DNA from: Peptococcaceae bacterium CEB3
GTDB lineage: Bacteria > Bacillota > Desulfitobacteriia > Desulfitobacteriales > Desulfitobacteriaceae
Assembly (NCBI GenBank): GCA_001029295.1
Contig: LDXJ01000056.1
Span: 62,001-126,000, forward strand
Direction: 5' to 3'
Length of the DNA: 64,000 nucleotides
The position numbers were made by a program, and so were the translations under genes. Of the stretch, positions 8,811 to 9,520 are shown one piece after another. Under the pieces are notes generated by a model. That model worked only from the letters and a program-made list of their open reading frames with translations, was not told where the DNA came from and did not search any database. Position 1 is the first letter of the stretch, and each line of letters begins with the position of its first letter.

Positions 8811-8834
8811 AAAAAAAAGCCCGCAATGCGGGCT
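8811..8834 (-). terminator. Terminator after the HesB-like selenoprotein gene
   Basis: On the minus strand AGCCCGC and GCGGGCT form a tight hairpin directly after the stop codon, followed by eight T. The plus strand lacks a T run, so the terminator serves the minus-strand gene. Confidence 0.9.
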
Positions 8835-9137
8835 TCAGCAACTACAACTTTCTGAGTGCGGCGTGCGAATTTCAAAACCCCCGCCGTAACGGGACTCTAC
8901 GTAATCAACCGTCGCCCCCTCCAAATAGGAAGAGAGCTTCTGGTCCGCAATGATCGAAACCCCAAACCCTTCGTCCAAAACATCGTTCTCCGTCTTTGAC
9001 TCATCCAGAGTCATGCCAAAGTTTGGCCCCCCTCAGCCAAAGCCCGCCACATAAAGGCGTAAGTACATGTTCCCCTTATTCTGGCCGGCGATAACCTCTT
9101 TCACTTTTTGAGCCGCGATTTCCGTAATCCCCACCAT
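8835..9137 (-). CDS. HesB/IscA-like selenoprotein with in-frame UGA
   Basis: Reading through one TGA (9033-9035) gives a 100-residue HesB/IscA-fold protein. Residue 35 would be selenocysteine, in VAGFG-U-GGPNFGMTLDE. The HesB family has Cys at this place (GxGCGGP...), and selenocysteine-containing HesB-like proteins are known in Firmicutes. The frame continues normally for 65 residues after the UGA and ends in ESCSC, the second conserved Cys motif. The gene has its own promoter (9191-9220), a good ribosome binding site (AAAGGAG) and a terminator. Possible roles are iron-sulfur or selenium/redox chemistry. A nonsense mutation is the alternative, but intact flanks and a hairpin after the UGA argue against it. 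Confidence 0.88.
8997..9035 (-). promoter_or_regulatory. Candidate bacterial SECIS element
   Basis: Starting at the UGA (9033-9035), the coding RNA contains a hairpin TGACTC/GAGTCA with loop TGGAT (8997-9013). Its apex lies about 25 nt after the UGA, in the range typical of bacterial SECIS elements that recruit SelB. A second possible stem, GCCAAA/TTTGGC, lies between. Confidence 0.6.
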
Positions 9138-9190
9138 TTTTGTACACTCCTTTATCCCAAACTTAGCCCTACCCTCCTGCCACCACGCTT

Positions 9191-9220
9191 ATCATACTTC
9201 GCCGGGGCAGCCCCTGTCAA
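9191..9220 (-). promoter_or_regulatory. Sigma-A promoter of the selenoprotein gene
   Basis: On the minus strand a consensus TTGACA (9215-9220), 18 nt and TATGAT (9191-9196). The predicted transcript starts about 47 nt before the ATG at 9137. Confidence 0.75.
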
Positions 9221-9280: not shown

Positions 9281-9520
9281 TCAGACAGAAGTACCGTTTC
9301 CGTCCGGCCGGAAATTCTGTCTCAGCCGGCGGATTTCAATCTCTATACTGGCGGGAAGATCCTGCAGCCCCCGGCGCCATTGCCGCCAATCCCACTGGAT
9401 TTTCTGAACCAAATTGTTCTGTTCCGGCCAAGCAATGAAAGCCTGGGGCTGGGGTGCCACCACACTTTTAATAAAACTCACAAGCAAGAAGAGGACAAAA
9501 ATGCGCCATAACCACCGCAT
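9281..9520 (-). CDS. Hypothetical small membrane protein
   Basis: The 79-residue protein has one N-terminal transmembrane helix or uncleaved signal (LWRIFVLFLLVSFIKSVVA). A Trp- and Arg-rich polar tail follows (KIQWDWRQWRRGL). AAAGGA lies 12 nt before the ATG. It is in line with the HD and GNAT genes upstream (gap of 30 nt), so it may be co-transcribed with them. No family was recognised. Confidence 0.5.
   Translation of the reverse strand: MRWLWRIFVLFLLVSFIKSVVAPQPQAFIAWPEQNNLVQKIQWDWRQWRRGLQDLPASIEIEIRRLRQNFRPDGNGTSV

Follow-up and report, generated by a model that had tools for sequence, protein, structure and literature searches.

On the minus strand of the window, the whole stretch of 64,000 nucleotides of Peptococcaceae bacterium CEB3 that was analysed, lies a hesB/iscA-like gene with an in-frame TGA at codon 35 (Table 1). 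The gene starts with an ATG at position 9137 and comprises 100 codons, followed by a terminal TGA at 8837-8835 as codon 101. The mechanical list of open reading frames contains no ORF of at least 60 amino acids in the hesB frame. Standard annotation splits the gene in half, and the gene is easily missed. Translation with codon 35 as selenocysteine (Sec) results in a product of 100 residues, MVGITEIAAQKVKEVIAGQNKGNMYLRLYVAGFGUGGPNFGMTLDESKTENDVLDEGFGVSIIADQKLSSYLEGATVDYVESRYGGGFEIRTPHSESCSC, which contains the sequence GFGUGGPNFG and ends with SESCSC.

Table 1. Features of the hesB/iscA-like locus. Positions are those of the window.
Feature	Position	Strand	Evidence or remark
Sigma-70-type promoter-like site TTGACA-18-TATGAT	9191..9220	-	11/12 consensus matches
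Shine-Dalgarno sequence AAAGGAG	9147..9153	-	9 nt 5' of ATG; read from sequence
hesB/iscA-like selenoprotein gene	8835..9137	-	100 codons + stop; read-through translation, TIGR00049, PF01521, IscA fold
In-frame TGA, codon 35	9033..9035	-	Sec at the family's first conserved Cys
Second small hairpin GCCAA-ACU-UUGGC	9015..9027	-	between UGA and SECIS stem; folds, codon choice
SECIS apical stem-loop UGACUC-UGGAU-GAGUCA	8997..9013	-	kept in Sec copies, decayed in Cys copies, covarying across the phylum
Codons of Cys98-Ser99-Cys100	8838..8846	-	other two expected cluster ligands; translation, alignment with IscA-type chains ending C-x-C
Intrinsic terminator stem	8816..8836	-	begins within the stop codon, then T-run; 9 pairs, 6 G-C

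The read-through product exceeded the cut-offs of TIGR00049 (iron-sulfur cluster assembly accessory protein; 74.1 bits, cut-off 58.8, E 9e-21) and of Pfam family PF01521, and it matched solved IscA-like chains in sequence (2apn with an E value of 2.4e-17). A structure search with an AlphaFold2 model of the protein (mean pLDDT 86, with a poor tail) revealed HI1723, IscA and SufA as top matches. Three conserved cysteines serve as cluster ligands in the IscA family. Sec35 aligned with the first of these three cluster-binding cysteines of A-type proteins, and Cys98 and Cys100 form the C-x-C end. Because the confidence of the model is low in the C-terminal tail with Cys98 and Cys100, the geometry of the Sec-Cys-Cys site is only predicted. 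The earlier note had described a complete 100-residue HesB-fold protein in a stretch left empty by ordinary gene finding, and the ORF list, the two family models and the solved structures bear this out. Its coordinates of the gene and of the UGA are exact, with the minus strand, which it did not name, to be added, and its placement of Sec at the first conserved Cys (GFG-U-GGPNFG) together with a CSC end agrees with the translation and with the alignment to Cys paralogues.

The consensus promoter and the terminator that had also been claimed are both present. One promoter-like site of such quality was found with 0.4 expected by chance, which is somewhat beyond chance. For the terminator the count alone is weak (1.4 expected by chance), and it is the position directly at the stop codon that is telling. 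The order HD-domain gene, small ORF, hesB, ACT-domain gene and DUF711 gene is found in many Desulfosporosinus and relatives within the Desulfitobacteriaceae; in the window and in the nearest relatives an asparaginase gene is located between hesB and the ACT gene. The small ORF (window 9281-9520, minus strand) has no Pfam or NCBIfam match, and its homologues adjoin hesB in 14 loci of relatives. The window also contains, on its minus strand, a full-length OLE RNA (RF01071, 5052-5630, 397 bits) and a c-di-AMP riboswitch (RF00379, 3696-3835, 84 bits).

Conservation of the UGA codon and of the SECIS element

A homologue is present in 42 of the 46 genomes of the family Desulfitobacteriaceae. At the position of codon 35 the 71 distinct family copies contain TGA (44 copies), Cys (26) or Ser (1), and the same TGA is also kept across the phylum Bacillota. 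Within the conserved core neither a frameshift nor a second premature stop was detected in any homologue found (71 distinct copies); broken frames downstream of the UGA in relatives, which the earlier note had considered as an argument against its own proposal, do not occur among them. Codons 49-89, 3' of the UGA, are under purifying selection in comparison with L022 (dN 0.117, dS 1.43). These findings bear on the possibility that the TGA truly terminates translation and that the gene is a recent pseudogene or the source of a truncated peptide of 34 residues. The gene does use a TGA as ordinary stop at its own last codon, and a gene finder sees mere fragments here, but the retention of the internal TGA in the family and the phylum, a dN far below dS behind it and the undamaged core in the relatives make this explanation extremely improbable.

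A tree of the Sec and Cys copies, calculated from too few columns to fix the direction or number of switches between the two residues, was compatible with a single change, but only in 45% of the bootstrap trees. One paralogue, L119 (G022:C240), has Ser at the Sec/Cys position (ESSDGPNFG) and has therefore lost the usual first ligand.

Downstream of the UGA the transcript can form the apical stem-loop of a SECIS element. Its loop is located 26-30 nt beyond the last base of the UGA, close to the hairpin apex that had been predicted about 25 nt after this codon. Codon choice in the stem differs between Sec and Cys copies: Leu44 is encoded by CTG in 30 of 30 distinct Sec copies versus 10 of 24 Cys copies, and Glu46 by GAG in 30 of 30 versus 12 of 17. 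At the remaining Leu positions of these Sec genes CTG is used in just 25 of 208 codons. The SECIS region has only about one third as many synonymous differences per codon pair (0.12, compared with 0.33-0.35). Within the family the stem is paired to 97% in Sec copies and to 74% in Cys copies, and after addition of Sec genes from across the Bacillota the value was 97.8%. Among these Bacillota Sec genes five of the six pairs were changed on both sides, with 17 double-change cells, and none of 500 shuffles reached the observed values. Of all single findings this covariation, at a constant distance from the UGA, carries the most weight, and it argues strongly for a SECIS element.

The Cys paralogues L027, L029 and L034 have an intact SECIS-like stem. 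These stems are probably relics of a Sec ancestry, and they match the relic SECIS published for a Cys HesB-like gene of Desulfitobacterium hafniense (PMC1794560).

A second small hairpin lies in the interval that separates the UGA from the SECIS stem. In its family form, GCCGA-AUU-UCGGC, it occurs in most Sec copies of the family, with strongly preferred codons at this site, but it is missing from distant members and is not a general feature. Its assignment to the SECIS element is unproven, as its cells are paired to 80% in Sec copies versus 85.5% in Cys copies.

Selenocysteine machinery and a second A-type gene

The genome of the host (5.3 Mb, 98% complete) encodes the complete machinery for Sec. 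SelB was found on contig C63 (342 bits, cut-off 242), and SelA and SelD on contig C60 with 547 and 404 bits, both above their cut-offs. A tRNA-Sec (selC) with anticodon TCA is also located on contig C63; a second RF01852 match above the cut-off turned out to be a tRNA-Ser and was rejected as another tRNA-Sec. The absence of selB or selC, which had been named as fatal to a selenoprotein, is not what we found. SelD is itself a selenoprotein with the Sec site SGUGCK (L018 1501-2427). The closest named relative, the sister species Acididesulfobacillus acetoxydans, contains a hesB ortholog with 97% identity, and its proteome includes a formate dehydrogenase described as selenocysteine-containing (PMC8982180). 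This enzyme and the Sec-containing SelD fit the earlier expectation of selenoprotein synthesis in the organism.

Read-through of the UGA could also insert an amino acid other than Sec, namely Trp by near-cognate suppression, or Cys. The paralogues, however, show Cys and in one case Ser at this codon, never Trp, and both the selection on the SECIS stem at the RNA level and the full Sec machinery fit Sec, so that we judge such a read-through to be highly improbable. On the grounds of conservation and covariation we rejected both the pseudogene and the insertion of a different amino acid.

The genome contains a second Sec-encoding HesB-like gene (L130 4382-4708; C37:16381-16707), which is 58% identical and has the same SECIS. 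It is located about 290 bp downstream of a gene of the cysteine desulfurase family (it exceeds the cut-off of TIGR01977, and the Sec lyase SclA is its next best match), and this neighbour gives a hint of an iron or Fe-S carrier role. Searches with three different queries revealed just two A-type genes in the host genome, both with a UGA. A Cys copy may have been missed because the assembly is a draft. If the count of two is complete, the A-type pool of the host might be wholly selenium-based, with Sec as cluster ligand and no Cys version. We regard this as unlikely; if true, selenium supply would limit the maturation of iron-sulfur proteins. The possible absence of Cys A-type genes concerns the host genome and not the whole family, because a PF01521 search of the relatives misses copies that are found by a protein query.

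Proposed mechanism and function

Taken together, the reading frame, the fold, the conserved UGA, the covarying SECIS and the complete Sec machinery identify the product as a selenoprotein, which we hold to be nearly certain. Our explanation as a whole is that the gene is monocistronic and encodes a HesB-like selenoprotein, which is an A-type iron-sulfur protein of the IscA/SufA/ErpA fold with a Sec35 inserted by SelB and a likely function as carrier, and we assign it a probability of about 0.88. That the protein is actually expressed, that Sec is a cluster ligand and that the protein acts as a carrier are, taken jointly, rather likely.

According to this explanation SelB with the Sec-tRNA would bind the stem-loop (nt 23-39, counted from the first base of the UGA) and cause the ribosome to insert Sec at codon 35; we infer that this insertion depends on SelB in vivo. 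The UGA at codon 101, just 5' of the terminator, would act as an ordinary stop. Of the three cluster-binding positions of A-type proteins, Sec35 would occupy the first, normally a Cys, and Cys98 and Cys100 the remaining ones; as a ligand Sec would be more nucleophilic and have a lower pKa than Cys. Judged from the fold and the ligand positions, the most likely role would be to bind and hand on iron or an Fe-S cluster.

The selenoprotein could also have a different function: Sec35 might serve in redox chemistry or in the handling of metals or metalloids instead of binding a cluster, and the protein would then be no Fe-S carrier. A redox function is assumed for most bacterial selenoproteins that are still uncharacterised, and the extended Cys-rich tails of family relatives, for example GGGCGDSCGGSC, could bind metals. 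By contrast, the fold and the arrangement of the three ligands match IscA/SufA, the second copy is located downstream of a cysteine-desulfurase-family gene, and a UxxC or CxxU redox motif was not found in the translated protein. A redox or metal-handling role is possible in our opinion, if doubtful.

For the reading as an A-type iron-sulfur protein, the coexistence of Sec copies and Cys copies, some of the latter with a relic SECIS, represents a natural test of the contribution of selenium to such a protein. The analysis also yielded a clear consensus for the SECIS of this family.

Relation to known selenoproteins and A-type proteins

Catalogues of selenoproteins have listed HesB-like members since 2006 (Zhang et al. 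2006, PMC1794560), and the gene is therefore a further member of an established family. Like the other members, it has an A-type fold, a Sec in place of the first conserved Cys and, directly downstream, a bacterial SECIS, and Cys copies with a relic SECIS in the Desulfitobacteriaceae are also a common feature. The U-G-G-P of GFGUGGPNFG fits UxGP, the motif of HesB-like selenoproteins (review PMC13188914). The clade described here differs in its CSC or Cys-rich tail and in scoring below both seleno-HesB models of NCBI. The product reached 39.2 bits with TIGR01911 (HesB_rel_seleno, cut-off 66.35), which is passed by none of 299 genomes of the phylum, and 55.4 bits with NF038090 (IscA_HesB_Se, cut-off 85), which is passed by none of the 46 genomes of the family. 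The curated models are too strict to name this clade.

A HesB-like selenoprotein of Methanococcus maripaludis is cited in PMC11097638 as identified through mutagenesis and selenium-75 labelling. By its description there it is likewise HesB-like and distantly related to IscA; the decoding system is archaeal, and the likeness is one of description alone. Since a disruption mutant of the Methanococcus protein showed no defect in nitrogen fixation (PMC11097638), any role may be subtle.

With IscA, SufA and related A-type structures (1s98, 2d2a, 2apn) the protein has the fold and the position of the three ligand residues in common. The differences to these solved proteins are Sec as the first ligand, GGPNFG after the Sec where theirs have SGF or SGM, and the Cys-rich tail in most relatives of the present gene.
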